Made by a program: the position numbers and the translations under genes | DNA from: Lachnospiraceae bacterium | Lineage (GTDB): Bacteria > Bacillota > Clostridia > Lachnospirales > Lachnospiraceae | Direction: 5' to 3' | NCBI GenBank assembly: GCA_017962825.1 | Contig: JAGCUO010000122.1 | Coordinates: 1-41,705 of the forward strand | Length of the DNA stretch: 41,705 nt | Notes under the pieces: model-generated | Told to the model about the DNA's origin: nothing | What the model saw: the letters and a program-made list of their open reading frames with translations, nothing else | Databases searched by the model: none | Shown: in pieces, positions 2,337-19,654 of the stretch | Position numbering within the stretch: position 1 is the stretch's first letter | How the letters are laid out: the number at the start of each line of letters is the position of its first letter

Positions 2337-2337
2337 A

Positions 2338-3369
2338 TCATTCTCCGTACAAAATATTTGCCAGTTTTTCGTAAGCCTCGGCCCAGCGGGCATTGGGCTT
2401 GGAATTATAGAGTTCTTTTTCTATCTCGTAATAATGTCCGCTTGTGACTGCAGATAACTGAGACCAGGCGGGATTATTGATAAGCAGATCCTGAACATTT
2501 GCAAGAGCGGCTTCCTTATCCTCACCCTGGGTGGTTACGAATATGAAATCCGGGTCCGCTGCAACTATTGCTTCAAGGCTCAGATCGTCAAGTATTGCAC
2601 CATTGGAATCCGCAATATTAATGCATCCGAGGTCTGCAAGTATCTCGCTGCCGACCGTTCCCTCACTGCCCTTTGCTTTCACAGAGCTTGCTGCTGCCCT
2701 GATGAATAAAACGGTAGGATGAGTATCCGGAACTGATCCTAAGATATCATCTATCTGATCTGCGATCTGAGTTCCGTACTGCTCATAGAGATCTTTTCTG
2801 CCGGTAATGTCAGTGCAGATATCAAGCATAGCCAGATAATCGTCAAAGTTTGATACTTCGAAATATGCTACGTTGAGACCTGCTGCTTCGAAAGTATCAA
2901 GCAGTTCAACCTGTGCATCGGTCCCGGCACTTGCGATCACAAAATCAGGCTGAGCCGCAATAAGAGCTTCCACATTAGGCTCAAGCATTCTTCCGAGATC
3001 AACGGTTCCTTCTGCAATATCGTAAGTTCCGAATGCATCGCTTACAACAGCACTTGCTTCGCCGCCTGCAAGCTGCCATATATCGAAGAAACTTCCGAGA
3101 AGAACCGCTACATTTTCGGTATTGCTGACGGTAACTTCTCTTCCGAGCGCATCGGTAAAAACATATTCATCCAAAGTCTCGCTTTCTGCCTGCTCTGTTT
3201 CGGGTTCTGCAGCGGCAGTAATCTCTACATCCTGAGTTTCAACGTTAGTTTCAACGTTTACATCAGTCTGAACATTCGCACTGGCACATCCCGCGAAAAT
3301 AAAGACGGAAGCAAGTATGGATAAAGTTCTTACAAAATTTCTATTTCTCATAACAAATACAAAATTCAC
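2338..3369 (-). CDS. FecB/BtuF-type ABC substrate-binding lipoprotein
   Basis: This is a periplasmic-binding-protein-fold lipoprotein of the iron-siderophore/heme/B12 class. A hydrophobic signal ends in a lipobox IFAGC; an acidic linker rich in Val, Thr and Glu follows; the domain has FTDALGREVTV, the typical entry strand of this family, then EPNVEALIAAQPDFVIAS and later DFIFVTTQGED. The long single helix between lobes and the length (about 340) fit the family. The start is ambiguous: a GTG at 3369 is 2 bases after the upstream stop, and an ATG at 3351 (MRNRNF) gives a neater signal peptide; neither has a strong ribosome binding site. It precedes the Met8-like gene and its own permease and ATPase. 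It may bring in iron or a tetrapyrrole for siroheme; this is inference. Confidence 0.9.
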   Translation of the reverse strand: MNFVFVMRNRNFVRTLSILASVFIFAGCASANVQTDVNVETNVETQDVEITAAAEPETEQAESETLDEYVFTDALGREVTVSNTENVAVLLGSFFDIWQLAGGEASAVVSDAFGTYDIAEGTVDLGRMLEPNVEALIAAQPDFVIASAGTDAQVELLDTFEAAGLNVAYFEVSNFDDYLAMLDICTDITGRKDLYEQYGTQIADQIDDILGSVPDTHPTVLFIRAAASSVKAKGSEGTVGSEILADLGCINIADSNGAILDDLSLEAIVAADPDFIFVTTQGEDKEAALANVQDLLINNPAWSQLSAVTSGHYYEIEKELYNSKPNARWAEAYEKLANILYGE

Positions 3370-3371: not shown

Positions 3372-3803
3372 TCAGTAATAATATTTCTCGGATATGATCC
3401 TGAGGTCTTCTTTGGTCACAACCTTGTCCTCAACATGAAACGAGTTAAGCACAGGATTTTCGGCCATAAGAGACAGGATAAAATAGCTTGCATTCTTATC
3501 ATATGAAAGCCTTATATCCTCTTCGGAAGGTCTGGAAGGAGATTCGGGATGAGAATGCCAATTTCCGAGAGGTTTATAGCCGTTGGCACGCATATCCTTG
3601 ACAGCATCAAGCTGCTCTTTGGGATCCATTGTGAAATGATCATCTGCATGATCGACATTTGTCAGGAAATAAACCTTCTTGACGGTTCTTCCCTCAGGTG
3701 TCTCTTCTCCCGCAATAAGTCCGCAGGCCTCTTCAGGTAAATGTTCCCTGGCATATTTTACGATATCGTCATAGAAACGATAGTCTATTCTTACGATTCC
3801 CAT
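3372..3803 (-). CDS. hcyD: JAMM-family metalloprotease (HcyD/Mec+-like)
   Basis: A 143-residue JAB1/MPN zinc protease. The full JAMM signature is visible: Glu25 in EEACGLI, His83 and His85 in NWHSHP, and Asp96 ten residues after the second His. Relatives (Mec+ of mycobacteria, HcyD of Wolinella) cut residues from the C-terminus of a ThiS-like sulfur carrier to expose its di-glycine tail. The carrier in this operon (4636-4842) ends in GGGC, so one Cys would have to be removed before activation. The gene lies 20 bases downstream of the activating enzyme and runs directly into the binding-protein gene. Function by family and context is well supported; the exact cut site is inferred. Confidence 0.92.
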   Translation of the reverse strand: MGIVRIDYRFYDDIVKYAREHLPEEACGLIAGEETPEGRTVKKVYFLTNVDHADDHFTMDPKEQLDAVKDMRANGYKPLGNWHSHPESPSRPSEEDIRLSYDKNASYFILSLMAENPVLNSFHVEDKVVTKEDLRIISEKYYY

Positions 3804-3823: not shown

Positions 3824-4636
3824 TTAATGTGATTTAAGATCACAAACTGCCTGCTCATAATCAATGGGCTTAAGGATGGTGGGGTGATCACCGCATACAG
3901 GGCAATTATGAGTATCCTTAGGCAATTTGATCTTGTGGAATTCCATGGTGAGTGCATCATATGTAAGGAGGTATCCGGTAAGAAGCTCACCTACTCCCAC
4001 GATATATTTGATAGCTTCCATTGCCTGGAGGCTTCCGATGACACCACCCATTGCACCGATGACGCCTGCCTGCTTACAGGTAGGAACCGCATCCTTCGGA
4101 GGGGGATTCTTGAATACACATCTGTAGCAGGGTCCCTGTCCGGGAACATAGGTCATGAGCTGGCCTTTGAATCTGATGATACCTGCATGTGAGAAAGGTT
4201 TCTTTTCAAGGACACAGGCATCATTGATCAGGAATTTAGCAGGAAAGTTATCCGTTCCGTCTATAATGAAATCATAATCGCGGATCAGTTCCTGAATATT
4301 ATCCGAGTAAACGAATTCCCTGTAGGTATTTACCACTACATCGGGATTCATTGCATTCATGGTCTCCTTGGCAGACTGTACTTTAGCCTTGCCGAGATCT
4401 GCGGTCTGGTGAATGATCTGTCTCTGAAGATTGGAAAGATCAACCTCGTCAGCATCTACGATACCGATGGTACCTACGCCTGCTGCCGCAAGATACATTG
4501 CAGCGGGAGCTCCGAGTCCGCCGGCACCAATGATAAGCACCTTGGCGTTAAGGAGTTTCTTCTGTCCCTTTGCGCCTACTTCTTTGAGAATGATATGTCT
4601 GGAATATCTCTCAAGCTGTTCATCTGTAAGAGCCAT
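3824..4636 (-). CDS. hcyF: ThiF/MoeB-family sulfur-carrier adenylyltransferase (HcyF-like)
   Basis: This E1-like enzyme adenylates the C-terminal glycine of a ThiS/MoaD-type carrier so that sulfur can be added as a thiocarboxylate. Visible are the nucleotide-binding IIGAGGLGAP (about residue 36-45), the aspartate-rich DADEVDLSNLQRQ, the GTDNF loop, two CxxC zinc pairs (Cys170/173 in CYRC, Cys245/248 in CPVC) and the conserved PTCKQAGVIGA loop with Cys187. I place the start at the ATG at 4636 (MALTDEQ, 270 residues), because GGAGGT lies 8 bases upstream at the ideal spacing; the in-frame ATG two codons earlier is only 2 bases from it. This GGAGGT is also the Gly-Gly codon pair of the carrier tail. 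The start overlaps the carrier stop as TAATG. Confidence 0.94.
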   Translation of the reverse strand: MALTDEQLERYSRHIILKEVGAKGQKKLLNAKVLIIGAGGLGAPAAMYLAAAGVGTIGIVDADEVDLSNLQRQIIHQTADLGKAKVQSAKETMNAMNPDVVVNTYREFVYSDNIQELIRDYDFIIDGTDNFPAKFLINDACVLEKKPFSHAGIIRFKGQLMTYVPGQGPCYRCVFKNPPPKDAVPTCKQAGVIGAMGGVIGSLQAMEAIKYIVGVGELLTGYLLTYDALTMEFHKIKLPKDTHNCPVCGDHPTILKPIDYEQAVCDLKSH

Positions 4637-4842
4637 TAGCATCCACCTCCCATGAAGTAAAGGAACTCTACATTGTCTCCGTCCTTAAGAACGGTTGATT
4701 CCTTCTTATCGGACTCAACAAATTCCTCGTTGATGGATACGGTTACATACTCGGGCATCTCTACCTTCTCAGCTTCGAGAAGTTCGGGAAGGGTAAGTCC
4801 GTCTTTGTATTCTTTCTTTTCACCGGCTACTGTAATGGTCAT
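4636..4842 (-). CDS. hcyS: ThiS/MoaD-like sulfur-carrier protein with C-terminal GGGC
   Basis: A 68-residue beta-grasp protein of the ThiS family. The middle has VTVSINEEFVE and LKDGDNVEFLYFMGGGC, which matches the end of ThiS/MoaD except that a Cys follows the glycines. Carriers of this kind hold sulfur as a C-terminal glycine thiocarboxylate. The extra residue explains why a JAMM protease gene lies two genes downstream. With the activating enzyme, sulfite reductase and MetY in the same operon it matches the protein-thiocarboxylate homocysteine pathway described for Wolinella succinogenes, so I use that gene name. A role in thiamine synthesis is possible from sequence alone, but no thi gene is nearby. 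Confidence 0.92.
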   Translation of the reverse strand: MTITVAGEKKEYKDGLTLPELLEAEKVEMPEYVTVSINEEFVESDKKESTVLKDGDNVEFLYFMGGGC

Positions 4843-4875: not shown

Positions 4876-5121
4876 TCAGTCTCCAACCTTTTTAACATAA
4901 AGGGTATAGGTTCCGTCACCGTTATCTTCAAGCTTTAATATCTGATGTCCTTCATCCTTGATGGAACGGGGTACGTTCTGCACCGGTTCTCCGTCATTCA
5001 TACGAATCGCAAGGATCTGTCCGTCATCAAGCTCATCAAGTGTTACCTTAGCCTTTACAAAAGTAAGAGGGCATACCTTATCGGTTATATCAACCTGCTC
5101 GTCAAAAGCTATATCTGCCAT
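4876..5121 (-). CDS. TusA/SirA-like sulfurtransferase
   Basis: An 81-residue TusA-family protein. The N-terminal motif VCPLTFVKAK puts the active-site cysteine at residue 17; the classical motif is CPxP and here the second Pro is Thr. The C-terminal strand LKLEDNGDGTYTLYVKK closes the small two-layer fold. Members pass persulfide sulfur between proteins. Its place between sulfite reductase and the ThiS-like carrier suggests that it takes part in moving reduced sulfur to the carrier, possibly as the sulfur donor in place of free sulfide. This step is inference; the family assignment is firm. A good GAAGG-type ribosome site precedes the ATG. Confidence 0.9.
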   Translation of the reverse strand: MADIAFDEQVDITDKVCPLTFVKAKVTLDELDDGQILAIRMNDGEPVQNVPRSIKDEGHQILKLEDNGDGTYTLYVKKVGD

Positions 5122-5156: not shown

Positions 5157-6029
5157 TTATTTTCCTTCGTATGCTGCCTGAATCTCCTTTCTGAATTCGT
5201 CTTCTCCGATCCTCTGAAGAGTCTTTCTGAACCTTTCTCCTGCATTTGCATGCTTGTCAAAGAAGTCTATAGCGGCATCCGCAACTCTGAAGAGTGTCTC
5301 CTTATCCTTGATGATAGGAACTATCTCTTCTCCCTTGTAAATCTGATTTCCGAAAAGTCCGCCGAAAGATACTATGTATCCGGGCTCATAATCCCAGGAA
5401 TCAACAGGGCAGCTCTTTACGCAGCGTCCACAGTTATTACATTTTGAAGCATCGAGAACAACTTTGCCGTTATCATCAAGAGACAGTGCTCCTTCTCTGC
5501 AGGCCTTGATACACACTCCGCAGGAGATACAGCTGTCAGGCTTATAGTCAATGATATATCCGCCTTTAACACCGAGATCGTTCTCCTCACTCTTAAGGCA
5601 ATTGTTCATACAGCCGGTAACGCCGAATTTGAATTTATGAGGAAGCTCTCTTCCGAAATATCTCTCATCAAATTCCTTGGCAAGCTCGTAGCTGTCGATA
5701 CATCCGCTGGGACATATTGCCGAGCCCTGACAGGCCGTAACGGTTCTTACTCTGGGTCCGCACACTCCGGGCTTAACTCCGCCCTCTGCAAGTTTTGCCC
5801 TTACTTCTTCGATATCGTTGAAATTGATGAAAGGGATCTCTACGCCCTGACGGGAGGTCATATGCACATAACCGTGTCCGTATTTCTCGGATACCTCTGC
5901 GATGGTCTTAATATTTTCCGCAGTAAGGTTTCCTCCGACAACCGCAAGTCTTAATGAGAAGTAGCCCTTCTGCTTCTGTCTCATGAAGCCGCCCTTTTTC
6001 AGTGATGAATAATCGATCTGTTCTGCCAT
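5157..6029 (-). CDS. Small siroheme/4Fe-4S sulfite reductase with ferredoxin domain
   Basis: A 290-residue single-chain reductase that would convert sulfite to sulfide in the cytoplasm. The N-terminal half has the sirohaem ferredoxin-like fold with HMTSRQGVEIPFI (about residues 56-68). The siroheme/iron-sulfur ligands Cys100 and Cys106 (C-X5-C) and Cys140 and Cys144 (GCMNNC, C-X3-C) are intact. A two-cluster ferredoxin domain follows, with CISCGVCIKAC (167-177) and CNNCGRCVKSC (197-207). Its size is closer to AsrC and to low-molecular-weight assimilatory reductases than to CysI. The gene sits between metY and the TusA-like gene, with Met8-like siroheme synthesis further along the operon. Nitrite as substrate cannot be excluded by sequence but context argues for sulfite. 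Confidence 0.92.
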   Translation of the reverse strand: MAEQIDYSSLKKGGFMRQKQKGYFSLRLAVVGGNLTAENIKTIAEVSEKYGHGYVHMTSRQGVEIPFINFNDIEEVRAKLAEGGVKPGVCGPRVRTVTACQGSAICPSGCIDSYELAKEFDERYFGRELPHKFKFGVTGCMNNCLKSEENDLGVKGGYIIDYKPDSCISCGVCIKACREGALSLDDNGKVVLDASKCNNCGRCVKSCPVDSWDYEPGYIVSFGGLFGNQIYKGEEIVPIIKDKETLFRVADAAIDFFDKHANAGERFRKTLQRIGEDEFRKEIQAAYEGK

Positions 6030-6038: not shown

Positions 6039-7280
6039 CTATGCCCCCAAGCCGATCTTGGAAAGGGCTTTATCAAAATCATCTTTAAGATCTTCTATAT
6101 CTTCAATTCCCACACTGATCCTTATCAGATCGTCGAATACTCCCGCGTCCTCTTTTTGCTTCTCGCTGGAATGAAGACTGATGGTGGAAGCAGGGTGTAA
6201 AACCAATGTCTTGGTATCACCGATATTGGAAAGTCTGTATGCAAGTTCAAGCTCATCCAGAAGCCTAAACGCATTCTCTTTGGAACCCACACGGATCGTA
6301 ATTATCGCTCCGTATCCGCCCTCTAAAAGCTTAGCTCCGATGTCATGCCACTTGCTTGATGCAAGACCGGGATAGTTGACCGTTATCTGCGGGTATCTCT
6401 TCTCAAGATACTCAGCCAGCTTCCCGGCGTTCGTACATTGGCGCTCCATACGCAGTCCCAATGTCTCCAATCCGATCTGATTCAAATAAGCGGTCTGAGG
6501 TGCCATACAGGCTCCCGCATTTCTGAAAAGTCCCGCACGGAGTTTTGCAAGAAAGGCATAAGGTCCGAATTTAATGTAGTCCTTCAGGATGGGGAATTTT
6601 TCTTTGTTCCATTTGAACTTTCCGCTGTCTGTAAGAACTCCGCCTATGGCATTGCTGCTTCCGTTTATGTATTTCGATGTGGAGTTGATGACTATGTCAG
6701 CTCCATGCTCAAATACTTTGATCAGATACGGAGTTGCTACCGTATTGTCGATAATGAGCGGTATTCCGTGGGAGTGAGCTATCTTTGAGAGCTCGTCGAT
6801 ATCCGTTACATCCAGGCACGGATTTCCGATGGTTTCCGCAAAAAGAAGCTTTGTTCTATCGGTTATGGCGCTCTCTATCTGCTCGAAATTATTATTTTCG
6901 ACATAGACGGTTTTAATACCGAAAGACTCCAGATCCCTGAAAAAATCGATCGTTCCTCCGTAAAGGCTGGAGCTTGATACGATCTCATCTCCGCTTTCCA
7001 GAATGTTGGTCAGTGCACAAAATATTGCCGACATTCCTGAGGAAGTAGCCACGCTTCCGACTCCGCCCTCAAGCTTTGTAATCCTGTTTTCAAAGGCGGC
7101 TATGGTAGGATTTGCCACTCTCGTATAGCAATATCCGGGTGTCTTGTTGGAAAATATCCCTTCAAGATCCTCCGCACTTTGCTGGTAGAAAGCACTTGTC
7201 TGATATATCGGAGTCAGGGTCGATCCGTATTTTTCTTTTTTATCCACTCCGCCGTGGAGAAGTGCCGTATTAAAATTCAT
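6039..7280 (-). CDS. metY: O-acetylhomoserine sulfhydrylase
   Basis: A 413-residue PLP enzyme of the Cys/Met metabolism family that makes homocysteine from O-acetylhomoserine and a sulfur donor. Seen: YCYTRVANPTIAAFE (about 50-65), the SSSSLYGGT loop, the cofactor aspartate in LIIDNTVATPYL (Asp178) and the Schiff-base lysine in INSTSKYINGSS (Lys203). The length and the Gly-rich end of the active site fit MetY rather than cystathionine synthase. GGAGGG lies 5-6 bases before the ATG. As first gene of the operon it is followed after 9 bases by sulfite reductase; here the sulfur donor is probably the ThiS-like carrier thiocarboxylate rather than free sulfide, as known for Wolinella MetY. The donor is inference from context. 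Confidence 0.94.
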   Translation of the reverse strand: MNFNTALLHGGVDKKEKYGSTLTPIYQTSAFYQQSAEDLEGIFSNKTPGYCYTRVANPTIAAFENRITKLEGGVGSVATSSGMSAIFCALTNILESGDEIVSSSSLYGGTIDFFRDLESFGIKTVYVENNNFEQIESAITDRTKLLFAETIGNPCLDVTDIDELSKIAHSHGIPLIIDNTVATPYLIKVFEHGADIVINSTSKYINGSSNAIGGVLTDSGKFKWNKEKFPILKDYIKFGPYAFLAKLRAGLFRNAGACMAPQTAYLNQIGLETLGLRMERQCTNAGKLAEYLEKRYPQITVNYPGLASSKWHDIGAKLLEGGYGAIITIRVGSKENAFRLLDELELAYRLSNIGDTKTLVLHPASTISLHSSEKQKEDAGVFDDLIRISVGIEDIEDLKDDFDKALSKIGLGA

Positions 7281-7397: not shown

Positions 7398-8906
7398 TCA
7401 TTTGCTTTCAAGATCACTTTTGTTGACAGACAGAACGCAGAAGTCAAGACGTTTGTCTTCCTGCTTGTCTTCCTTTTTATCGGCTCTGCCCATTCCGGTA
7501 ATGTTGGATGCATTCGGATCAACCCCCTCAACAGTTGTCACCTTGCCTGTTCCGGCTCCCTTTGAAGCGCCCGGCACACGGAATGTTTCTACATTGATGG
7601 GAGCTATAGATACCTCCTCAGGCTTCGGAAGCTGAGGAATCCATTCATAAGGCACTCTGTATGCACGATATATACCATTCATGGTGAATTTACCGCCAAT
7701 GCCTCTGAAATACGGATTGATATATTCCCATACGATCTCGTGCTCCGGTGTAACCTCTATAAGTCTTCCGTCTGAGCCCTCAGTGATAAGGGTGTTTCCG
7801 TTGGGAAGTCTCTGTGCCGAAGAGATATATGAGCTGTAGAACTTGGAAGCATCCGTGAAAAGAAGGAAACCTGCTTCCATGGGAGTGTACTGCCACTTGA
7901 TCTCAAGTGTTATGGGATCAAATTCCAGAACTCTGGAATAGTCTCTGTGTGCGTTGTTGTTACCGGTAACAGATGAAGGATTGGGAGTTCCGTATCCGCC
8001 CTCTCCTCCGTTATCGAATACAAGGAGGTTTCCTTCTCCGGGAAGTCCCTTGGGGATCATATGGAAGTGATGCTGTCCGATGATCCATCCGAGTGCCCTA
8101 AGCTCCTTGGTCTTGGAAAAATCGGGACCAATCTGCCAAACGATCTCTCCGGTGGCCTTACTGATGATCGCTAAGATATTTGCATTTCTCGAATCGAAGA
8201 TCAGGTTATCGGGATGGAATCTCTCATCACCTGCATCGTACCATTTATTGGGGCCGAGGACTGATACACAGTTTACATGTAACCAATCTCCGCCTGCTTC
8301 GCCGTGAAGTCCGGGATTTCTGGCAAGAGTGTTTTTGGCTGCCTCATCAAAATCGAATTCATCGAAATGATCGCTGGCTTTCCAGCTCCAAAGAATATTG
8401 CCTTCCCAGTCAACCTCGATAATCTTGTCATCGATGAGTTCTTTGTCGGAAATAGCAGGATTAGTTACGTTTTCATGCACAAGCAGGATCGTGTTTCCAC
8501 TGTCAACCTTGGGTTCTCCGCCGGGATAATAATATCCTACGGTATTTCCTTCACGCTGAAAATCATGATGCTGTCTTGCCTGCCACTTGGGCTCCTGTCC
8601 TTCATCCTCTATGTACTCGGTATGATCGAACTTCCAGACTATATTTCCGTCCCAGTCAACCTGAACAAGATCAAGCTGATCCTGATAAGCTTTCTTGCTT
8701 TCTCTTACACCGGTGGTTCCGAGCACATATCCGCCGGGAAGGATCTTATTGGGAAATCCGCCGAGTCCGGCCCAAAGATTAACCTCATTACCATTCATGT
8801 CAATGAGCAAGGCTCCTTTTGCAGAAGGGTAAATGGTGTAACCATTCCATGTTTTGTCCTTGTCATACTGTAAAACACCTGTCGCAAATATACTGGGATA
8901 TCCCAT
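7398..8906 (-). CDS. Arylsulfotransferase (ASST) family protein, cytoplasmic
   Basis: A 502-residue protein of the arylsulfotransferase/beta-propeller family. ASST enzymes move a sulfuryl group from an aryl sulfate to a phenol without PAPS, using a histidine that becomes sulfated. Family blocks are visible: HHDFQREGNTV (about 113-123), DWLHVNCVSV (207-216), QHHFHMIPKG (278-287) and AHRDYSRVLEF near 320, with repeated WxGNIVW/GNILWSW propeller blades. There is no signal peptide, unlike secreted enterobacterial AssT. I choose the ATG at 8906 (MGYPS) since GAGGTG lies 6 bases upstream; the GTG at 8915 would lie inside that site. It ends the second importer operon, 23 bases after the binding-protein gene, so it probably acts on the imported compound. 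The last 70 residues are charged and low in complexity. Confidence 0.85.
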   Translation of the reverse strand: MGYPSIFATGVLQYDKDKTWNGYTIYPSAKGALLIDMNGNEVNLWAGLGGFPNKILPGGYVLGTTGVRESKKAYQDQLDLVQVDWDGNIVWKFDHTEYIEDEGQEPKWQARQHHDFQREGNTVGYYYPGGEPKVDSGNTILLVHENVTNPAISDKELIDDKIIEVDWEGNILWSWKASDHFDEFDFDEAAKNTLARNPGLHGEAGGDWLHVNCVSVLGPNKWYDAGDERFHPDNLIFDSRNANILAIISKATGEIVWQIGPDFSKTKELRALGWIIGQHHFHMIPKGLPGEGNLLVFDNGGEGGYGTPNPSSVTGNNNAHRDYSRVLEFDPITLEIKWQYTPMEAGFLLFTDASKFYSSYISSAQRLPNGNTLITEGSDGRLIEVTPEHEIVWEYINPYFRGIGGKFTMNGIYRAYRVPYEWIPQLPKPEEVSIAPINVETFRVPGASKGAGTGKVTTVEGVDPNASNITGMGRADKKEDKQEDKRLDFCVLSVNKSDLESK

Positions 8907-8929
8907 ATCCTTCACCTCACTTTAATATA

Positions 8930-10009
8930 TTAGTTAAGTACTACAGTTACTGCATCGGGAAAAGCGATTTCAGCAGGTCTTACATCATAAAATTCTCTGA
9001 CACTGTAATCAGTTTCGAATCTGCCCGCCTCAAACGCCCACTTCTCTACTTCCTCAAGATGCTGAGCGGAATCTTCATTAAGACCATGCTCGAATACTCT
9101 GTTCTGCCAATTTGCCTTGAAGTTCTCAGGTAATATGGAAAGCTTCTGAGCAAGATATTCAGCGGTTTCATCAAGATTGTTGTTAATGAAATCGATTGCC
9201 TCGTCAACAGCAAGAAGATACTCGGCAAGAAGCTCGGTATTATCACTGATAAATCCTTCGGTCGCAAGAAGATAAGCGGTAGTTGAAACTCCAATCTCCT
9301 GAGCGGTAGCTACTTTCTTCCATCCGATCTCTTCGAAATACGCAACCTGCTCTCCGCTTACAAAATATGCCGATGCATTTCCTGCGGTCGCAACAGCAAG
9401 AGCAGTCTGTGCAGAATCAACTGCGATGATGTTCTGATTATCGAAATCAAATCCGAGGTACTCGATTGCTTTGGCTACATAGTAATCAACAACTGTTCCG
9501 ATGGTGGACATGAATCCTTTGCTTCCGTCAAGTGATGCAAGATCATCTGCATATTCGGGAGCTACATAAAGACCTCCGACCATATCACCGCTGGGAGCCC
9601 CGAGATCCGAGAAAATCTTCAGATCTGTCACACCATAGGTATTTCCAAGACGGTTTACGGTTGCGTAATCAGCCATGTCTCCAATGTCTGCAGTTCCGTT
9701 TACTATGGCATCAATTGTTGCAATTCCATATACATACTCGGTAATCTCAGCATTGATCCCGTGATTGGCAAAAAATCCCTGCCACTGAGCAACCTCATCA
9801 ACATACTGATCCATTCCGCCGGTCATAACTGCAAGACGTATAGTCTGAAGTTCAGCCGGCGCATCGGGATTTCCATTTCCCTCTTCAGTTGCCGCATTTC
9901 CTGCATTTGCATTTCCTGTGTCAACCGATCCGGATGCATTTCCGCACCCTGCAAGTGAAGCTAAAGCAAGCACACCCGCAAACAATAAACTTAAGATCTT
10001 TTTTTTCAT
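8930..10009 (-). CDS. SsuA/TauA-type ABC substrate-binding lipoprotein
   Basis: An NMT1/SsuA-like binding protein for a sulfonate, sulfate ester or similar solute. From the ATG at 10009 it begins MKKKILSLLFAGVLAL and has a lipobox SLAGC, then a Gly/Asn/Ala-rich linker, then the domain starting IRLAVMTGGMDQYVDEVAQWQGFF. NGTADIGDMADYATVNRL is the usual ligand-pocket loop of the family. I reject 18 upstream residues because AGAGGA lies 10 bases before the ATG at 10009 and the signal peptide begins there. It follows the permease gene by 55 bases and precedes the ASST gene. The exact ligand is not readable. Confidence 0.91.
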   Translation of the reverse strand: MKKKILSLLFAGVLALASLAGCGNASGSVDTGNANAGNAATEEGNGNPDAPAELQTIRLAVMTGGMDQYVDEVAQWQGFFANHGINAEITEYVYGIATIDAIVNGTADIGDMADYATVNRLGNTYGVTDLKIFSDLGAPSGDMVGGLYVAPEYADDLASLDGSKGFMSTIGTVVDYYVAKAIEYLGFDFDNQNIIAVDSAQTALAVATAGNASAYFVSGEQVAYFEEIGWKKVATAQEIGVSTTAYLLATEGFISDNTELLAEYLLAVDEAIDFINNNLDETAEYLAQKLSILPENFKANWQNRVFEHGLNEDSAQHLEEVEKWAFEAGRFETDYSVREFYDVRPAEIAFPDAVTVVLN

Positions 10010-10064: not shown

Positions 10065-10838
10065 TCATTTAACTCCGAAATGTTTTAGGAGTTTTTTACC
10101 GACAAAGCTTAAAAGTCTGTCAGCTATAAATCCGATAAGTGCCAGCGTTATGATTCCCGCAAATGCCCAGGATGTCTTATAATACATTCTCGAACTTTGG
10201 ATCAGATATCCGAGACCATCTCCTCCAACAAGCATCTCAGCTGCTATAACACAGATGATACTTGATGAAAGTCCGAGTCTGACACCGGTAAAGATATTGG
10301 GAACAGACGAGGGTACTATAACGGTAAAAAAAACTCTTATTCTCCCCGCTCCCATACAAGAAGCTGCTTCAACAAGTGATTTGTCAGTTGTCACAACGCC
10401 TGCTATGGTATTGACCAGAATCGGGAAAAATGCTGCGTAAAGGATCAGTGCAACTTTTGATTTATCATCCACACCGAACCAAATGAGAAACATCGATGTA
10501 AGAGCAATGGCGGGAATGAATCTAAGCAGATTCAGAAGGGGTTCAACGAGCCACCTTACACATTTAAAATGTCCCGTGAGCAATCCGATTGGAATAGCAG
10601 TAAGTATTGCCAGTCCCCATCCTTTTCCGATCCTTCCGAGTGATGCAATAATATCAGCCCCCAGAGTTCCATCGGAAATCACTTTGACAAGCGCTTTCCA
10701 CGTTTCTATAGGACTAGGAAGAAATATCTCGTCGTAATTGAAAGCTGCAAATGCCCATAATGTAAAAAATATGATCCATGATATTATTCCGCAGCGAAGT
10801 ATTTTCTCCACTATGCCGGTTTTTTCTTTTGTAGCCAT
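10065..10838 (-). CDS. SsuC/TauC-type ABC permease
   Basis: A 257-residue BPD-type inner-membrane permease. About six hydrophobic segments are visible, with FLPSPIETWKALVKV near the N-terminus (typical of SsuC/TauC) and the coupling motif EAASCMGAGRIRVFFTVIVPSSVPNIFTG in the middle. The ATG at 10838 (MATKEK) is preferred because GGAGGA stands 8 bases upstream; the longer frame would use a TTG inside that site. It overlaps nothing but starts 15 bases after the ATPase stop. It pairs with the ATPase at 10853-11914 and the lipoprotein at 8930-10009. Confidence 0.92.
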   Translation of the reverse strand: MATKEKTGIVEKILRCGIISWIIFFTLWAFAAFNYDEIFLPSPIETWKALVKVISDGTLGADIIASLGRIGKGWGLAILTAIPIGLLTGHFKCVRWLVEPLLNLLRFIPAIALTSMFLIWFGVDDKSKVALILYAAFFPILVNTIAGVVTTDKSLVEAASCMGAGRIRVFFTVIVPSSVPNIFTGVRLGLSSSIICVIAAEMLVGGDGLGYLIQSSRMYYKTSWAFAGIITLALIGFIADRLLSFVGKKLLKHFGVK

Positions 10839-10852
10839 TTTCCTGTTCCTCC

Positions 10853-11914
10853 TCAAATGAAGTACTGACCCGAATCATCACGGGACTTATTCTTGACAAC
10901 TCTGGTTGATTCATTATCAAGGATGTACAACTGATCTACTAAAACCCTTACCTTGTCTCCCGCCTTCAGCGGTCCGTTCACCAGTTGTGAATTGGCTTTT
11001 ATCTTTATTCCGTTAACATCCAATATAACTTCGAAATAATGACCCCTGAAAATACTCTGTTCAACAATTCCATCCTCATATGAAGGATCCTGGCCTTTAA
11101 CAGAATTCAGACTTTCAAGTTCAACAAATTCTGGCCTGATGATAGCCCTGGTGTCATCTCCTTCCTTATCAAAACCTTTAAGCACATCATAATCATCGAT
11201 AATAGTGGACTTTCCGATAAACTGTGCCGCAAACGGCGTCTTGGGATATAGATATATATTGACCGGATCACCGACCTGCTCGACCTTACCGAGATTTGTG
11301 ATAACGATCTCATCCGCAACCTCTATTGCTTCATCTTGGTCGTGTGTAACGAAAATACTGGTAATACCTATCTTATCTATAGTCTCTCTGAGCCATGTTC
11401 TGAGTTCCTGTCTAACCTTGGCATCTATTGCTGCAAACGGTTCATCCAGCAGCAATAGTTCAGGTTCCGGAGCAAGTGCTCTTGCAAGGGCTATTCTTTG
11501 TTTTTGTCCGCCTGACAGCTGATCCGGATATCTCTTTTCAAGACCGGGAAGATTTACAAGTTCCAAAAGTTCGGTGACTCGCTTATTTATGTATTCCTTA
11601 TCCTTTTTCTGAACCTTAAGGCCATACGCAATATTGTCATAAACTGTCAGATACGGAAATAAGGCATAATTCTGAAAAACAAATCCCACACCTCTCTGGC
11701 TCGGTGACAGATCATTCACAAGACTGCCGTTGATATAGATATCACCTGAATCCTGCTTCTCCAAACCGGCTATCATACGAAGTATTGTTGTCTTGCCACT
11801 TCCGCTGGGTCCGAGAAGTCCGATAAGTTTCCCCTTTTCGATTCCGAAACTGACATTATCAGATGCCTGGCAGTCTCCGAATCTTTTATTTACATTTTTA
11901 AGTTCTACATACAT
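10853..11914 (-). CDS. ABC transporter ATP-binding protein with TOBE domain, CysA/PotA type
   Basis: A 353-residue ATPase. Walker A is GPSGSGKTT (about 36-44), the Q-loop FVFQNYALFPYLTVYDNI, the signature LSGGQKQRIALARALA, Walker B LLLLDEPFAAIDAK and the switch FVTHDQDEA. The C-terminal 120 residues form a TOBE-like regulatory domain with IIRPEFVEL and KVRVLVD. A long CysA-type subunit is unusual next to an SsuC-type permease, whose usual ATPase (SsuB) is short and lacks TOBE. It is the first gene of the second importer operon. The preceding GAGGTAAAC site is 4-5 bases from the ATG. Confidence 0.92.
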   Translation of the reverse strand: MYVELKNVNKRFGDCQASDNVSFGIEKGKLIGLLGPSGSGKTTILRMIAGLEKQDSGDIYINGSLVNDLSPSQRGVGFVFQNYALFPYLTVYDNIAYGLKVQKKDKEYINKRVTELLELVNLPGLEKRYPDQLSGGQKQRIALARALAPEPELLLLDEPFAAIDAKVRQELRTWLRETIDKIGITSIFVTHDQDEAIEVADEIVITNLGKVEQVGDPVNIYLYPKTPFAAQFIGKSTIIDDYDVLKGFDKEGDDTRAIIRPEFVELESLNSVKGQDPSYEDGIVEQSIFRGHYFEVILDVNGIKIKANSQLVNGPLKAGDKVRVLVDQLYILDNESTRVVKNKSRDDSGQYFI

Positions 11915-12070: not shown

Positions 12071-12835
12071 TCAGATAACATAATCCAATATACTGTGGTT
12101 AAAGTAATTTATAATTAGATTTCTGTAATAAGCAAAGTCCTCACCGCTTCTTAATCTCGGTCTGGGTATCTCTATCTCGATAACCTGATCGACCTCCGCA
12201 GGTCTGGGTCTCATGACCACAACCTTATCTCCGAGGAAGATCGCCTCATCGATATCATGAGTGACCATGATCATCGTGGTCTTCTCTTCTTCCCAGATCT
12301 TACCTATCTCAGTCTGCATGTTCATCTTGGTAAGAGCATCCAGAGCACCGAGAGGCTCATCAAGGAGAAGGATCCTGGGATGTCTCATAAGAGCTCTTGC
12401 TATCGATACACGCTGTGCCATACCTCCGGATAACTGTCCGGGATATACCTTTTCGAAATTCTCAAGGTCTACCTTCTTCAGATAGGTATTAACAAGTTCT
12501 CTGAGTTCTTCCTTAGAGCCGTCAAGTCCCAATGTCAGATTGTCCTCAACAGTAAGCCAGGGAAGAAGTCTGTGATCCTGAAAGATAACTCCTCTGTCAA
12601 GGCCTGCCTTCTCAACTCTCTTACCGTCAAGAAGGATATCTCCGCCGTAGTTTTTCTCCAGTCCGGCGATCAGTCTGAGCAAAGTGGTCTTTCCGCATCC
12701 GCTGGCACCGATTATGGATATGAACTCACCCTCTTTTACGGTTAAGTCCACCTTTTTGATAGCTTCCACATCCTTATCCGGTGTATGAAAGATCTTGGAT
12801 ACATTTTTAATTTCCAAAATATTATTGTCGCTCAT
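12071..12835 (-). CDS. SsuB/TauB-type ABC transporter ATP-binding protein
   Basis: A 254-residue ATPase of the nitrate/sulfonate/taurine importer family. Walker A is GASGCGKTT (about 42-50), VIFQDHRLLPWLTVEDNL is the family-typical Q-loop, LSGGMAQRVSIARALM the signature, LLLDEPLGALDALTK the Walker B and MVTHDIDEAIFLGD the switch region. It lacks a TOBE domain. It ends the operon that begins with the two DszB-like genes, 19 bases after the permease gene. Substrate by family: alkyl or aryl sulfonates, taurine, nitrate or cyanate; the sulfur context favours organosulfur compounds. Confidence 0.93.
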   Translation of the reverse strand: MSDNNILEIKNVSKIFHTPDKDVEAIKKVDLTVKEGEFISIIGASGCGKTTLLRLIAGLEKNYGGDILLDGKRVEKAGLDRGVIFQDHRLLPWLTVEDNLTLGLDGSKEELRELVNTYLKKVDLENFEKVYPGQLSGGMAQRVSIARALMRHPRILLLDEPLGALDALTKMNMQTEIGKIWEEEKTTMIMVTHDIDEAIFLGDKVVVMRPRPAEVDQVIEIEIPRPRLRSGEDFAYYRNLIINYFNHSILDYVI

Positions 12836-12854: not shown

Positions 12855-13703
12855 TTACTTGACGGTCTTTCTTTTCCATTTAAGGGATCTTTGTTCGATC
12901 TGATGAAGTATTACATCAATGGCCACACCTATTACGCCGATGACAACCATAAGTGCTATCAGATTATCGGACCAGAGAAATTCTCTGGATTTCATTAGTG
13001 CATATCCGAGTCCGGTAAGACCTCCGAGCATCTCTGCAGCCACAACGGCCATCCAAGCATTTCCGGCTCCGAGTCTGAGTCCGGTAAATATCGAAGATAC
13101 AGCTGAAGGAAGTACGATCTTTCTTAAAAAGATACTTCTTTTAAGTTCAAGCACCTCGGCAAGCTCACAATACTCTACCTGAACACCTTTAATTCCCTGC
13201 AATGTATTTAGGAAGATCGGGATCAGCACGCCTCTTGCAATGATAAGCTCCTTAGATACTTCACCGATTCCGAACCAGAGGATTATGAGAGGCATCCATG
13301 CATAGAGGGGAATCTGTCTGATAACATTGATAATGGGAGAAACCACTCTCTCTACGACCTTATTCAGACCGCTGACTACTCCAAGTATAAGTGCGATACC
13401 GGCTCCCCAAAGGTAACCTATAAGTACTCTTTTTCCGCTTATTGCCAGATCCTTAGCCAGCGTTCCGTCAGAGATAATCTTGACAAGTGCTTTGACAACC
13501 TTGAGCGGTGAAGGAAGGATCACCTCCAGAAGAAGTCCGGATCCGGAAAGTATCTGCCATACGATAAGTAACAGAATGGGAACCGCTAAAGTATTGATAA
13601 GTGCTGCCAGTCTGAGTCCCAGCTTATCACTGCTAAAGTCTCCGGTAAGATTTTTAATTGTCTTTTGCTTAACGGGTAATTCCGCAGTCATCTCTTTTGC
13701 CAT
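12855..13703 (-). CDS. SsuC-type ABC permease
   Basis: A 282-residue permease with about six membrane segments. VILPSPLKVVKALVKIISDGTL and the EAA-like loop CELAEVLELKRSIFLRKIVLPSAVSSIFTGLRLGAG define the SsuC/TauC family. It resembles the permease at 10065-10838 in layout, including the conserved SDGTL stretch, so the two systems look like diverged copies. It lies between the lipoprotein gene and the ATPase gene; a stable hairpin precedes its ribosome site. Confidence 0.92.
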   Translation of the reverse strand: MAKEMTAELPVKQKTIKNLTGDFSSDKLGLRLAALINTLAVPILLLIVWQILSGSGLLLEVILPSPLKVVKALVKIISDGTLAKDLAISGKRVLIGYLWGAGIALILGVVSGLNKVVERVVSPIINVIRQIPLYAWMPLIILWFGIGEVSKELIIARGVLIPIFLNTLQGIKGVQVEYCELAEVLELKRSIFLRKIVLPSAVSSIFTGLRLGAGNAWMAVVAAEMLGGLTGLGYALMKSREFLWSDNLIALMVVIGVIGVAIDVILHQIEQRSLKWKRKTVK

Positions 13704-13718
13704 GATTATTCCAATTCC

Positions 13719-13743
13719 CGGGAGAGCAGGTCGTGCTCTCCCG
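13719..13743 (-). repeat. Stable intergenic hairpin after the binding-protein gene
   Basis: Perfect 10-bp arms (13719-13728 and 13734-13743, CGGGAGAGCA) enclose a 5-base loop between the lipoprotein stop at 13758 and the permease start at 13703. On the transcribed strand no T tract follows. Such hairpins often protect the 3' end of a binding-protein mRNA so that this subunit is made in excess; this role is inference. Confidence 0.65.
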
Positions 13744-13757
13744 TAATATTTTTTTAC

Positions 13758-14912
13758 TTACTCAAAGAAGTTGGGATTAAAGAAGGTTTCCTTATCTACA
13801 CGTCCTTCTGCGGTAAACTCTTCGGTATTTTCGACGAGCCAGTTCTGATAGTTATCGGTATCTTCGATAAGCTGTGAAAGAGGTGCTGAAGCGGAATAGA
13901 AAGTCTCTGCGCTTCTGTTGTTGTACCAGATGGTGTTCTCTGCAGGTTCTCTTGTAATGGTCTCAAGAACAGCTGCGGTCTCTTCGGGATTCTGAATGAT
14001 ATAAGCATTTACAAGCTGACGAAGCTTAAGAACTGCCTTGATCAGATTAACGTGAGTGTTTGCAAATTCGGTAGGTGCAAATGATACGGAAGCTCCGCCG
14101 TAGTTGGTGTAGACACCGTTCTCTTTAGCATTTGCGATCTCGCGGAAGTTACCGGAGATGATCTCGTTGTTGATATTAGCGAAGGGGTGAACTGAGATTG
14201 CATCAACTTCGCCTGCCTGAAGAGCAGTCTTGATATCATCATTTGATACGTTTGCGTAAGTCCAGTCGGTTCCTTCGGTCCATCCGAGGTCATTGGTCTG
14301 CTCGATAAGAGCAACATACTGGCATCCTGCCTTCCAGCTTGCAATGGTGCCGCCCTGAAGATCTGCAAGGGTCTGATAAGGTGAATCCTTAGCAACAAGA
14401 ATAGCTACGATTCCGGGTGCAGGATCTTCAGAAAGCTCTACAGCGGTAATGTCGCCACCCTGTGATCTATAGAGAAGATAGGGATAAAGCATACGGTTCA
14501 TAAGATGAAGCTCGTCTCTTTCCATGAGCTGAACTTCGTTTCCTACAGCGCCTTCTACGATCTTAACAGTGGTGTGGTTGTCACCGAGAAGCTCATTGAA
14601 CCAGCCGTTCTTGTCAGCAAGGTATACCCAGCTTCCCGAACCGATCTTAAGCTCTGCCTGCTCTTCAAAGGAGTATTTCTCCTTGAGCTGAGCGATCGCA
14701 GATTCGATTACACCAACCGTGATAACATCATTTGCGGTTACGTTTCTGTCAAGAAGCTCTTTAGCAAGAGCCTCATCCTCTGCGGTAATGGTCACTTCAG
14801 CTGCTGCAGTTCCCTGATTACCATTTCCACTCTGTCCGCCGCAGCCTGCAAGTCCGAGCGCAGCAGCAAGTCCGAGTGCTGCAAACTTTGTGATCAATCC
14901 ATGTTTTTTCAT
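13758..14912 (-). CDS. SsuA-type ABC substrate-binding lipoprotein
   Basis: A 384-residue lipoprotein that should capture the ligand for the SsuC/SsuB pair downstream. From the ATG at 14912 it starts MKKHGLITKFAALGLAAALGLAGCGG, with an LAGC lipobox. The mature part has ELKIGSGSWVYLADKNGWFNELL, TTVKIVEGAVGNEVQLM and LQAGEVDAISVHPFANINNEI, which are NMT1/SsuA-like pocket segments. The start is set by AGGAG six bases before the ATG; 45 further upstream codons in the same frame have no signal-peptide character. It follows the second DszB-like gene by 55 bases, so binding protein and putative desulfinases are clearly separate gene products here. Confidence 0.91.
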   Translation of the reverse strand: MKKHGLITKFAALGLAAALGLAGCGGQSGNGNQGTAAAEVTITAEDEALAKELLDRNVTANDVITVGVIESAIAQLKEKYSFEEQAELKIGSGSWVYLADKNGWFNELLGDNHTTVKIVEGAVGNEVQLMERDELHLMNRMLYPYLLYRSQGGDITAVELSEDPAPGIVAILVAKDSPYQTLADLQGGTIASWKAGCQYVALIEQTNDLGWTEGTDWTYANVSNDDIKTALQAGEVDAISVHPFANINNEIISGNFREIANAKENGVYTNYGGASVSFAPTEFANTHVNLIKAVLKLRQLVNAYIIQNPEETAAVLETITREPAENTIWYNNRSAETFYSASAPLSQLIEDTDNYQNWLVENTEEFTAEGRVDKETFFNPNFFE

Positions 14913-14967
14913 AATAATCTCCTTATATTTCCTCTTCTCTTCCCCAACACATTTTGCTAAAGAACGA

Positions 14968-15996
14968 TCAAACTGCTTTTCTCGCCTCAAGTTCAAGTTC
15001 AGCGAGTGCTTTTTCAAGGAATGATGAATCAACCCATTCCGATACATTTACAGGCTTATCCAGATATCCGTGCTCAAGAAGGAATTCCGACTGGATCTGT
15101 AATGCCTTAAGAGCCTCGGGATCAAGATTGGGCTCAAGCTTTGTGTAGTGATCCTCAGTATGTGAAGCCCTGTACTCTTCTATCGTAGAGTGAGTCTGCT
15201 CGGCAAGAAGTGCTTCCGCTTCATCTTTATGATCCTTAGCCCATCTTGCTGCGATTATGGCAGCCTTCAGGAAAGCAACGACCACTTCGGGCTCTTCCTT
15301 TGCAAGCTTTTCGCTTACGGTAAGTACATTGGGATAAATATTATTTACTGGCTGTACATCTCCCGACTGTTTCCATACATCGTAGATAACCTTTACTTTA
15401 AGTCCGGGCTCAACCTTTCTGATATCTCCGCCTCTGGTAAAGATGGCATCCACCTCTCCTCTTGCAAGTGCACCGATCTCAGCAGATGCTATGGATTTGG
15501 TAGAAGGAAGTCCTCTGTCCGAATGGTATCCCTCATCGTTGATCACCTCTACCCATTCAACCTCATCCTTGGAGATTCCGTTCAACTCCAGAGCCAGTTC
15601 CAAACCATGCTCTGCCGTAGCCCTGTGGAAATCGATAAGAACATCCGTGTGAACGGGAATGGCGAGTTTCTTGCCTTTAAGATCGGCTACTGAATTGATG
15701 CCTGAATCTTCTCTTACCAAAACAGGCTGATATGCATCTATCGTATTGACTGCAAGAAGCACAACTCCGGTTCCCTTTGACTTGGTCCAGAGGGGAGGAA
15801 TATTTCCACCCTCACGGAAAAGTCTGTCATTATGGAATGTAAAATGTGCTGCCCATTCTTTTTGCTCAAGAGTCTGAAGCTTGATGGGATCGTAACCTAT
15901 CTTTTCAAGTTCTTCTTTTAGGAAGCCGTGGTTTGCTGCGATGTATGAAGCATTTGCAACGGGGCAAATCGTGTAATAGATTTTCTTGTCTGCCAT
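14968..15996 (-). CDS. DszB-like sulfinate desulfinase homologue, copy 2
   Basis: A 342-residue soluble protein that would usually be labelled sulfonate-binding protein. It has no signal peptide or lipobox and matches 2-hydroxybiphenyl sulfinate desulfinase (DszB) as I remember it. TICPVANASYIAANHGFL corresponds to the DszB nucleophile segment with Cys11 for Cys27; AHFTFHNDRLFREGGNIPPL puts His51, Arg61 and Gly64 at the spacing of DszB His60, Arg70 and Gly73; NVLTVSEKLA, AIIAARWAKDH and the end SEFLLEHGYLDKPV also align. DszB cleaves C-S bonds of aryl sulfinates to give sulfite. The start is 2 bases after copy 1, with GGAGG inside its last codons. The substrate here is unknown; a cytosolic binding protein is the alternative. 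Confidence 0.8.
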   Translation of the reverse strand: MADKKIYYTICPVANASYIAANHGFLKEELEKIGYDPIKLQTLEQKEWAAHFTFHNDRLFREGGNIPPLWTKSKGTGVVLLAVNTIDAYQPVLVREDSGINSVADLKGKKLAIPVHTDVLIDFHRATAEHGLELALELNGISKDEVEWVEVINDEGYHSDRGLPSTKSIASAEIGALARGEVDAIFTRGGDIRKVEPGLKVKVIYDVWKQSGDVQPVNNIYPNVLTVSEKLAKEEPEVVVAFLKAAIIAARWAKDHKDEAEALLAEQTHSTIEEYRASHTEDHYTKLEPNLDPEALKALQIQSEFLLEHGYLDKPVNVSEWVDSSFLEKALAELELEARKAV

Positions 15997-15998
15997 CT

Positions 15999-17006
15999 TT
16001 ATACCTCCTCTTCAAGTTCCTTAAGAGCTCTTTCAAGGAAACTCTTATCAGCCCATTCATTTACATCGACTACCTTGTCGGTGAATCCGTGATCGTAAAG
16101 GAACTGAGCTCTGGTCTGAAGTGACTTAAGACCTGCTTCCGAGAAGTTGGGCTCAAGCTGTGCATAGAAGTCTGCGGGATATGCTCTGCGATACTGCTCT
16201 ACGGTACTGAAGGTCTGCTCTGCAAGGAGCTCTTCTGCTTCATCCTTGTGATCCTTAGCCCATCTTGCTGCAACAATTGTAGCCTTAAGATATTCAACAA
16301 CTACTTCCGGCTCTTCTTCTGCAAGCTTACGGCTTACGGTAAGTACGTTGGGCCACTCGTTATTAACGGGATCTACAACGGTCTGATCTTTTACGATGTT
16401 GATTATCTTTCTGTACTTGCCGGACTCAAGAACTCTTTCGGAAGCGGAGAGCTTGATAAATACCGCATCTACCTCACCCTTATCAAGTGCTTCAAAATCA
16501 AGACCGGTTTTGAAAGTCCATCTTGCTCCATTGGGATAATCGGGAGTCTCATCCTTGATGAATACCCACTCTACATCCTCATTCTTTAATCCTGCGGATT
16601 TAAGAGCGTTTTCAAATCCCTCGAGTGCTGCAGTCTTCTGATGATCGATGGTTACATTGATCCTGTCGGGAATACCGACTTTCTTACCTTTAAGATCTGC
16701 AACGGTTTTGATATCGGAATCTTCGCGAACAAGTATTGCCTGCTGTCCGGGGATGAGATTAAGTCCGATAAGAACAGGTTCTGCTCCTCTTGACTTAGCC
16801 CAGATGGGAGGAGTGTTTCCGCCCTCACGGAAAAGTCTGTCATTCTCATAGTTGAAATGCTCTACCCAATGTTCCTGCTCAAGTGTCTGAAGCTTTACGG
16901 GAGTATATCCGATCTTCTCAAGTCTCTCTTTAAGGAATCCGTGATTAGCTGCAATGTATGATGCGTTTGCCACAGGGCAGATAGTGTAATTAAATTCTTT
17001 AGCCAT
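15999..17006 (-). CDS. DszB-like sulfinate desulfinase homologue, copy 1
   Basis: A 335-residue paralogue of the next gene, clearly more than half identical by eye. It begins directly at YTICPVANASYIAANHGFLK with no secretion signal. The candidate catalytic residues are Cys10, His50, Arg60 and Gly63, in the same spacing as in copy 2. The two copies differ most between residues 110 and 190, where substrate contacts of the two-lobed fold would lie, so they may take different sulfinates. It heads the operon that goes on to a full SsuA/C/B importer. Sulfite released here would feed the sulfite reductase at 5157-6029. Family match and residues are read from the sequence; activity is inferred. Confidence 0.8.
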   Translation of the reverse strand: MAKEFNYTICPVANASYIAANHGFLKERLEKIGYTPVKLQTLEQEHWVEHFNYENDRLFREGGNTPPIWAKSRGAEPVLIGLNLIPGQQAILVREDSDIKTVADLKGKKVGIPDRINVTIDHQKTAALEGFENALKSAGLKNEDVEWVFIKDETPDYPNGARWTFKTGLDFEALDKGEVDAVFIKLSASERVLESGKYRKIINIVKDQTVVDPVNNEWPNVLTVSRKLAEEEPEVVVEYLKATIVAARWAKDHKDEAEELLAEQTFSTVEQYRRAYPADFYAQLEPNFSEAGLKSLQTRAQFLYDHGFTDKVVDVNEWADKSFLERALKELEEEV

Positions 17007-17205
17007 TTTAAAGTCCTCCGTTTGTATTGTTTACAAAATGTTTTCTGTTATCTGTTTAAAGCGTTCCGGGCATCAACAGAACGGAGGCCCTCCCGATGAC
17101 TTTTTGTAGTGAATCATTTCAATATCCTTTATCGTCTCATTTGACCTGTCGAAATAATGTTACTTAGCACGTTGATAAGTTATCATGTTGTGAATATGCT
17201 GACCA

Positions 17206-17220
17206 ATACCTCTTGTCTAT
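17206..17220. promoter_or_regulatory. Putative sulfur-regulon box D (ATAC-N7-CTAT)
   Basis: An ATAC-N7-CTAT dyad with T-N11-A spacing lies 200 bases upstream of the first DszB-like gene and 20 bases after the preceding ATPase gene. CTTATAAC next to it on the minus strand resembles flanks of boxes B and C. The remaining leader (17007-17205) has a few weak inverted repeats (for example CGTTC/GAACG around 17062-17083), and I recognise no riboswitch or terminator in it. Confidence 0.35.
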
Positions 17221-17239
17221 TGCTTGTTATAAGTTCTTT

Positions 17240-17899: not shown

Positions 17900-17900
17900 A

Positions 17901-19106: not shown

Positions 19107-19125
19107 ATCTCAACCGAATAACGGA

Positions 19126-19646: not shown

Positions 19647-19654
19647 CATGCAAA

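Follow-up and report, generated by a model that had tools for sequence, protein, structure and literature searches.

Does a presumed anaerobe use the DszB fold to obtain sulfur from organic compounds? The question is raised by 41,705 nucleotides of DNA from Lachnospiraceae bacterium (GenBank assembly GCA_017962825.1, contig JAGCUO010000122.1), analysed here at full length and referred to as the window. Two open reading frames (ORFs) on its minus strand, with a gap of 2 bases, encode proteins A (15999..17006, 335 aa) and B (14968..15996, 342 aa), which are 56% identical. A sequence-only reading of the window had described them as tandem DszB-like sulfinate desulfinases, and both ORFs are present where it placed them. 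DszB itself appears in the literature, as far as the excerpts at hand describe it, as the last step after monooxygenases. Homology evidence supports the assignment of A and B to the DszB family and not to the binding proteins. Furthermore, the DszB-like genes lie within a cluster of sulfite reductase and thiocarboxylate homocysteine genes, which goes beyond the earlier proposal and strengthens the desulfinase reading.

Relationship of A and B to DszB and to binding proteins

Searches of the PDB with phmmer gave DszB (2de2) as the top match for both proteins, with E values of 2.3e-23 for B and 3e-22 for A; the runner-up was SsuA (2x26), at 0.006 and 4.6e-7 respectively. With a profile built from 11 family members, the alignment spans residues 22-362 of DszB (E 3.6e-31); SsuA (3uif) comes next at 1.3e-9. 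B also aligns to the annotated DszB of plasmid pMyong1, whose gene is flanked by dszC and by a gene for an LLM (luciferase-type monooxygenase) oxidoreductase, with 29% identity over 356 aligned positions (E 2e-29), while its comparison with the lipoprotein substrate-binding protein (SBP) encoded next to it gave only short scraps (E 0.021). We rejected a chance occurrence of the motifs described below, since the alignment to DszB spans the whole length.

The DszB site consists of C27, H60, R70 and G73; S25 forms a hydrogen bond to H60, and an RXGG motif conserved in DszB homologues includes R70, according to the excerpted text of PMC6100217. The candidate active-site residues are T9-x-C11, H51 and R61-E-G-G64 in B and T8-x-C10, H50 and R60-E-G-G63 in A, where Cys11 of B and Cys10 of A align to DszB Cys27. 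The four positions named in each protein by the sequence-only reading (Cys11/His51/Arg61/Gly64 and Cys10/His50/Arg60/Gly63) are therefore as it claimed. Its statement that the spacing matches DszB is exact for His-x9-Arg-x2-Gly (H51-x9-R61 in B, H50-x9-R60 in A) but does not hold for the Cys-His distance, which is 40 residues in A and B versus 33 in DszB and appears as a 7-residue gap in the alignments.

The combination of [S/T]-x-Cys-Pro, His and R-x-G-G was found in 25/25 DszB-like sequences and in 0/9 binding proteins. The 25 rows comprise 15 Bacillota sequences from this analysis, nine aerobe plasmid sequences and the one annotated DszB; the plasmid rows come from eight plasmid regions, chosen among the listed matches for genus spread, and one misframed row was removed from the comparison. 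N-terminal hydropathy, taken as the best 15-residue Kyte-Doolittle mean within the first 45 residues, ranges from 0.05 to 1.53 in the 25 DszB-like rows and from 1.9 to 2.8 in the nine binding proteins. By this measure A and B are most likely cytosolic and lack a signal peptide, as had been proposed. In a tree of these 34 rows (25 DszB-like, 9 SBPs), the DszB-like sequences separate from the SBPs with support of 100/100. The annotated DszB falls inside the DszB-like clade, on a long branch whose exact position is not settled, and the same caution over long branches applies to several SBPs.

Two model matches point away from a desulfinase. Pfam NMT1 exceeds its cut-off for A and B, and among the NCBIfam models SsuA_fam scores best (102.5 and 102.8 bits, E ~2e-29, under the cut-off of 163.5), with no desulfinase model among the NCBIfam matches of either protein. 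These matches fit the earlier description of the genes as hidden among binding-protein annotations, and so do 17 of the 40 plasmid rows listed, which are annotated as ABC transporter substrate-binding protein; the description is not universal, with one row annotated as a monooxygenase and 22 unannotated at the match. Entries of this name that contain C-P...H...R-x-G-G and have no signal are probably enzymes.

A binding-protein identity for A and B was rejected on four grounds: the absence of a signal, the signature, the tree, and the true SBP alongside. The marks of the SsuA/TauA type, namely a signal peptide or lipobox and a score above the SsuA_fam cut-off, are missing from both proteins. 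The sequence marks of the DszB family are found: Cys within [S/T]-x-Cys-Pro, the His and R-x-G-G, the place in the tree and the signal-less N-terminus. The tree split and the signature also bear out the earlier judgement that A and B are unlikely to be the transporter's binding protein. Export of A and B as transporter binding proteins without a classical signal would agree with their annotation by similarity (SsuA_fam, NMT1), but we find it scarcely credible given that a hydrophobic N-terminus is absent in 25/25, that a true SBP adjoins and that the clade is separate. We also regard as unlikely the idea that A and B are leaderless cytosolic ligand-binding or regulatory proteins which retain the binding-protein fold and sense an organosulfur compound. 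Their fold family (NMT1 over cut-off) and the adjoining ABC transporter are consistent with such a role; nevertheless, Cys, His and RxGG are retained in 25/25, whereas a binding site could vary at these positions, the cluster already encodes a proper lipoprotein SBP, and a Pfam scan at E up to 1 found no domain besides NMT1 and no redox cofactor domain.

Distribution and tandem duplication

A search for homologues in Bacillota, as the sequence-only reading had suggested, found 12 loci with a DszB-like gene in 11 genomes, belonging to two subfamilies, class 1 and class 2. Within the genus of the window genome (G000), 8 of 31 genomes have profile matches at E 1e-20, seven of them with class 1 and one (G003) with class 2 only. 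Matches are sparse beyond the genus: 5 of 397 genomes in the family, of which three are DszB-like (the window genome, G1148 and G1149) and two are SBPs; 1 of 391 in the taxonomic class at the stricter E 1e-25 (the window genome); and 4 of 398 in the phylum at E 1e-15, comprising the window genome, G789 with two copies, one SBP, and G615, whose uninspected match begins at profile position 75. In the order to which G789 belongs, 1 of 10 genomes has a match (G789 itself). Weak matches in G735, G983 and G1061 proved on inspection to be lipoprotein SBPs and are excluded from the DszB-like counts.

For the window genome, completeness is 81% and contamination 4.7%. Contamination of this metagenome-assembled genome (MAG) is an unlikely source of the locus, since the same operon is present in G006, G009, G015, G016 and G029. 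The named genomes closest to it are MAGs of Lachnospiraceae, including one labelled roe deer rumen, and we take genome names of the RUG type to denote rumen.

In the tree, support is 100/99 for class 1 of the window genus, 98/95 for class 1 together with the G789 pair, and 96/91 for class 2. The A sequences form one group (100/99) and the B sequences another (100/100), and the two G789 copies join each other (100/99). This pattern implies two or more tandem duplications, or else homogenisation of the copies by gene conversion. The SBP beside A and B likewise clusters with that of the G789 pair (100/100), suggesting that the gene pair and the transporter travel together. The dN/dS ratio (nonsynonymous to synonymous substitution rates) is 0.02-0.11 for four A orthologue pairs and 0.06-0.07 for two B orthologue pairs, rough values with dS >1 in most pairs, and the orthologues are under purifying selection.

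The duplicated set in the earlier description is real in the window genome, but a pair is not the rule: B was found in 3 of the 7 class-1 genus genomes, one of the other four being fragmentary, and A occurs without B in three complete operons (G006, G015, G029). These solitary A genes, together with the retention of every signature residue in B, make it very unlikely that B lacks catalysis and serves as a partner, or is a paralogue acting on another substrate, within a heteromeric unit, even though the separate origin of the tandem pairs in the window genus and in G789 (or gene conversion) and the intact signature in both copies of both pairs would be compatible with one.

The sulfite cluster and its neighbourhoods

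Starting from position 17006, the order of genes on the minus strand is A, B, SBP, permease, ATPase, an insert, MetY, sulfite reductase, TusA, ThiS, ThiF and JAMM. The NMT1/SsuA-like SBP (MKKHGLITKFAALGLAAALGLAGCGG; 13758..14912, start ~14912) carries a lipobox, and is the separate lipoprotein with a signal that had been noted in this operon. Its transporter continues with a permease (12855..13703; BPD_transp_1, SsuC type by position and reading) and an ATPase (12071..12835), for which the best NCBIfam models are SaoA, NtrCD, TauB and SsuB, all below cut-off. Beyond the insert lie a MetY-type O-acetylhomoserine sulfhydrylase-like pyridoxal phosphate enzyme (6039..7280), a siroheme sulfite reductase-like protein (5157..6029; NIR_SIR plus 4Fe-4S, best NCBIfam model AsrC, below cut-off), a TusA-family sulfur carrier (4876..5121), a ThiS-family sulfur carrier with the C-terminus GGGC (4636..4842), a ThiF/MoeB-family adenylyltransferase (3824..4642) and a JAMM (Prok-JAB) metalloprotease-like protein (3372..3803). 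JAMM is followed by a Peripla_BP_2 SBP, a siroheme synthase N-terminal domain (precorrin-2 dehydrogenase-like; 1725..2393, minus strand) and a FecCD-type permease. The thiocarboxylate homocysteine pathway is defined by the joint presence of a ThiS-type carrier with one or more residues after Gly-Gly, ThiF, JAMM and MetY, and by gene content all four are together here.

The insert (7398-11914, minus strand) was not seen in five other complete operons of the genus. Situated between the DszB-side transporter and MetY, it holds a second transporter set, consisting of an ATPase with a TOBE domain (10853..11914), a permease (10065..10856; SaoP/TauC-like, below cut-off) and an NMT1-like lipoprotein SBP (8930..10009), and an arylsulfotransferase-like gene (7398..8915; PF05935/PF14269). 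A 76% identical arylsulfotransferase-like gene in G983 adjoins another NMT1-type transporter. Immediately upstream of A, at 17240-19596, lie genes for ABC export, read as FtsX/MacB type, and one for a small membrane protein; this group stays near the operon in several relatives. Further away, 24912-27503 encodes a single 863-aa protein with 4Fe-4S, iron-only hydrogenase C-terminal, GGDEF and EAL domains. No known RNA control element scored above the gathering score in window positions 500-20000. A promoter scan was not used, its 19 sites falling below the mean of 22.0 in shuffles, and a terminator scan gave 16 sites against 9.8 in shuffles, with one strong hairpin at 7359-7393.

A sulfite reductase, MetY, ThiF and JAMM occur within ~13 kb of the DszB-like gene at 8 of the 12 Bacillota loci. 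Six of these are class 1 (G000, G016, G009, G006, G015, G029) and two are class 2 (G003, G1148), so that the eight show three arrangements and both subfamilies. In G003 the order is DszB-like gene, amino-acid-type SBP, amidohydrolase and sulfite reductase, with MetY, ThiF and JAMM assigned by reading of the sequences. The class-2 gene of G1148 shares 4 bases with a hemL-like gene (hem names are partly by reading) and is followed by ThiS (C-terminus GGGAN), ThiF and JAMM; MetY, the sulfite reductase, siroheme genes and a gene resembling TusA lie upstream, with no transporter between MetY and JAMM. Among the remaining loci, that of G1149 is a 3-kb contig, and the G789 contig ends ~5 kb downstream of the pair. 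The joining of two subfamilies with different neighbours to the same sulfite-to-homocysteine genes is our best evidence that sulfite may be the product.

The window genome also has a class-2 gene on contig C180 (8401-10667 of the read locus), beside a mandelate racemase/enolase-superfamily gene and, by reading, an oligopeptide-type transporter. Some rhizobial homologues likewise adjoin annotated oligopeptide-type transporters. In 6 of the 8 aerobe plasmid regions the homologue has as its neighbour an LLM, a flavoprotein of the acyl-CoA-dehydrogenase family or another monooxygenase, and by reading the LLM and flavoprotein neighbours may be DszA/DszC-like sulfinate makers.

A protein family of ~420-430 aa is found on contig C196 of the window genome (2500-3789 and 11377-12633 of the read locus), on C5 of G003 (12739-14034 of its locus) and in G1148 (164-1435 of its locus), near NMT1 or amino-acid-type ABC transporters. 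Two members were scanned with no Pfam match, as were two of the small partner proteins encoded alongside. The C196 proteins adjoin BcrAD_BadFG/HGD-D (2-hydroxyglutaryl-CoA dehydratase-like) proteins, and the G1148 copy, 24% identical, lies ~6 kb from the JAMM gene. This family is possibly another anaerobic organosulfur system.

The setting is very probably anaerobic, as the sequence-only reading had supposed: besides the kinship with Lachnospiraceae MAGs, luciferase-type monooxygenases (PF00296, e.g. DszA, SsuD) were found in 0/11 DszB-carrying Bacillota draft genomes (68-98% complete; DszC-type flavoproteins were not searched for), with 10 of 14 control genomes positive. The LLM partner expected of a dszABC (4S) pathway was thus not found in any of the 11. 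CysD/PAPS reductase (PF01507) is present in three of the 11 genomes (G000, G1148 and G789) and in 0/7 other genus genomes (72-92% complete; Sat-type ATP sulfurylase, PF01747, was not searched for); in these seven, therefore, the search revealed no CysD-type sulfate route that could supply the sulfite reductase. In G000 the CysD-like gene is beside a CysN-like gene, a putative adenylyl sulfate reductase (FAD-binding) and a sulfate-type transporter, all named by reading.

Proposed function and comparison with known systems

We consider it reasonably probable that A and B act in the cytosol as desulfinases that need no cofactor and free sulfite from an organosulfur compound taken up by the cell, and that the neighbouring genes make this sulfite into homocysteine. 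The SsuABC-type transporter would import the compound, most likely an organic sulfinate. The Arg of R-x-G-G and the last Gly of the motif would hold the sulfinate; the Cys would donate a proton to carbon or attack sulfur, its thiolate being stabilised by the His, which would be hydrogen-bonded to the Thr two residues before the Cys; and SO2/sulfite would depart. The siroheme sulfite reductase would then reduce sulfite to sulfide, ThiF, JAMM and ThiS would carry the sulfide as a protein thiocarboxylate, and MetY would form homocysteine, a chain requiring no oxygen at any step. This sequence of import, desulfination, sulfite reduction, thiocarboxylate formation and homocysteine synthesis appears to be the simplest reading of the cluster, in which we infer catalysis, a sulfinate substrate and the flow of sulfite. 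The sequence-only reading had called the Cys a nucleophile. The residue is conserved in the DszB position, but its role is disputed, with a density functional theory study favouring Cys as proton donor to the aromatic carbon in DszB (excerpt of PMC6100217), a mechanism that would suit aromatic sulfinates.

Several observations, besides the NMT1 and SsuA_fam matches, weigh against this proposal. Every link in the chain rests on homology and neighbourhood, and the class of the transporter was read from sequence only. The proton-donor mechanism was argued for an aromatic sulfinate, and no rumen source of sulfinates is shown. The count of 8/12 has no baseline for clusters that lack a DszB-like gene. 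The terminator-like hairpin lies between the arylsulfotransferase-like gene and MetY, so A and B may be transcribed separately from the sulfite genes. In G000, G1148 and G789 the sulfite reductase may serve sulfate. In the fragments read from G005 (DszB-like fragments and an SBP only) a sulfite reductase was not seen, and there is none in 18 kb around the C180 gene of the window genome. The differing transporters and neighbours of class 2, at this locus and in G003, imply that substrates differ or that the function is broader. Finally, 2 of the 8 aerobe plasmid regions have no adjacent monooxygenase.

Some of these points bear on the substrate. A and B could be C-S cleaving enzymes of the DszB fold acting on an activated sulfonate, a carbonyl-bisulfite adduct or another sulfo compound, and releasing sulfite or sulfate without oxygen. 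The varied transporter types, the search of the 11 genomes that found no luciferase-type monooxygenase to make a sulfinate in the cell, and an identity to DszB of ~29%, at which its substrate is not simply transferable and the comparison is limited to signature residues, would all accommodate this. Among relatives, DszB has been assayed, as has BdsABC at the level of the whole operon, and the source excerpts place both in pathways that form sulfinates; by general chemistry a cofactor-free enzyme would be unable to reduce a sulfonate. A non-sulfinate substrate is therefore possible but doubtful. More tentatively, A and B may represent an oxygen-independent, cofactor-free C-S lyase for sulfinates or activated sulfonates in gut anaerobes, feeding sulfite to the thiocarboxylate homocysteine pathway. 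Anaerobic desulfonation is known from a Clostridium with the enzyme unidentified, and if this suggestion is true A and B would be one such enzyme behind anaerobic assimilatory desulfonation.

The cluster suggests oxygen-free acquisition of sulfur from organic compounds in a presumed anaerobe, a rumen-type bacterium. If so, anaerobes could draw on organic sulfur with no need for glycyl radicals or nitrogenase-like reductases, and A and B would offer small, easily expressed genes for studying how organosulfur is assimilated anaerobically in rumen and gut. Searches of an open-access library gave no report of DszB-type proteins in anaerobes or in anaerobic sulfur assimilation, or of sulfinates as an anaerobic sulfur source. 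The sources excerpted here already describe DszB homologues and RXGG, as well as an aerobe in which a desulfinase is encoded near Ssu-type transporter genes.

A and B share with DszB (2de2/2de3) the whole-length alignment, [S/T]-x-Cys-Pro-Val, the His and R-x-G-G, and the lack of a signal peptide and of any cofactor-binding domain in the Pfam scan. They differ in overall identity (29%, for B and the annotated DszB), in having Thr for Ser25 and 7 more residues between Cys and His, and in their partners: no DszA-type partner was found, and the neighbours are a sulfite reductase and homocysteine genes. In Gordonia terrae C-6 the desulfinase gene bdsA has sulfonate/nitrate/taurine-type transporter genes at neighbouring gene numbers (excerpt of PMC3868597), so a desulfinase beside a sulfonate importer is not in itself the new setting that the sequence-only reading had taken it to be. 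Its operon differs in containing reduced flavin mononucleotide (FMNH2)-dependent and alkanesulfonate-type monooxygenases and in serving benzothiophene desulfurisation, as the same excerpt describes.

The protein-thiocarboxylate homocysteine pathway of Wolinella succinogenes, reportedly described by Krishnamoorthy and Begley in 2011, has ThiS, ThiF, JAMM and MetY-type genes together, as the window does. It is also mentioned in the excerpted part of PMC5764234. Coupling to DszB-like genes, as read from gene content, is the feature that sets the window cluster apart.

In G1061 (contig C263, 3604-13154 of the read locus), NMT1-type transporter genes lie near NifH-like and nitrogenase component 1-like genes, an arrangement resembling the isethionate reductase setting of Rhodobacter capsulatus. 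That nitrogenase-like reductase (Isr), reported in 2024 for anaerobic isethionate assimilation (excerpt of PMC11423573), is similar to our proposal for A and B in that organosulfur is assimilated anaerobically to sulfite near sulfonate/taurine ABC transporter genes. Isr is an unrelated, nitrogenase-like enzyme with a radical S-adenosylmethionine partner, whereas A and B have no redox cofactor domain.

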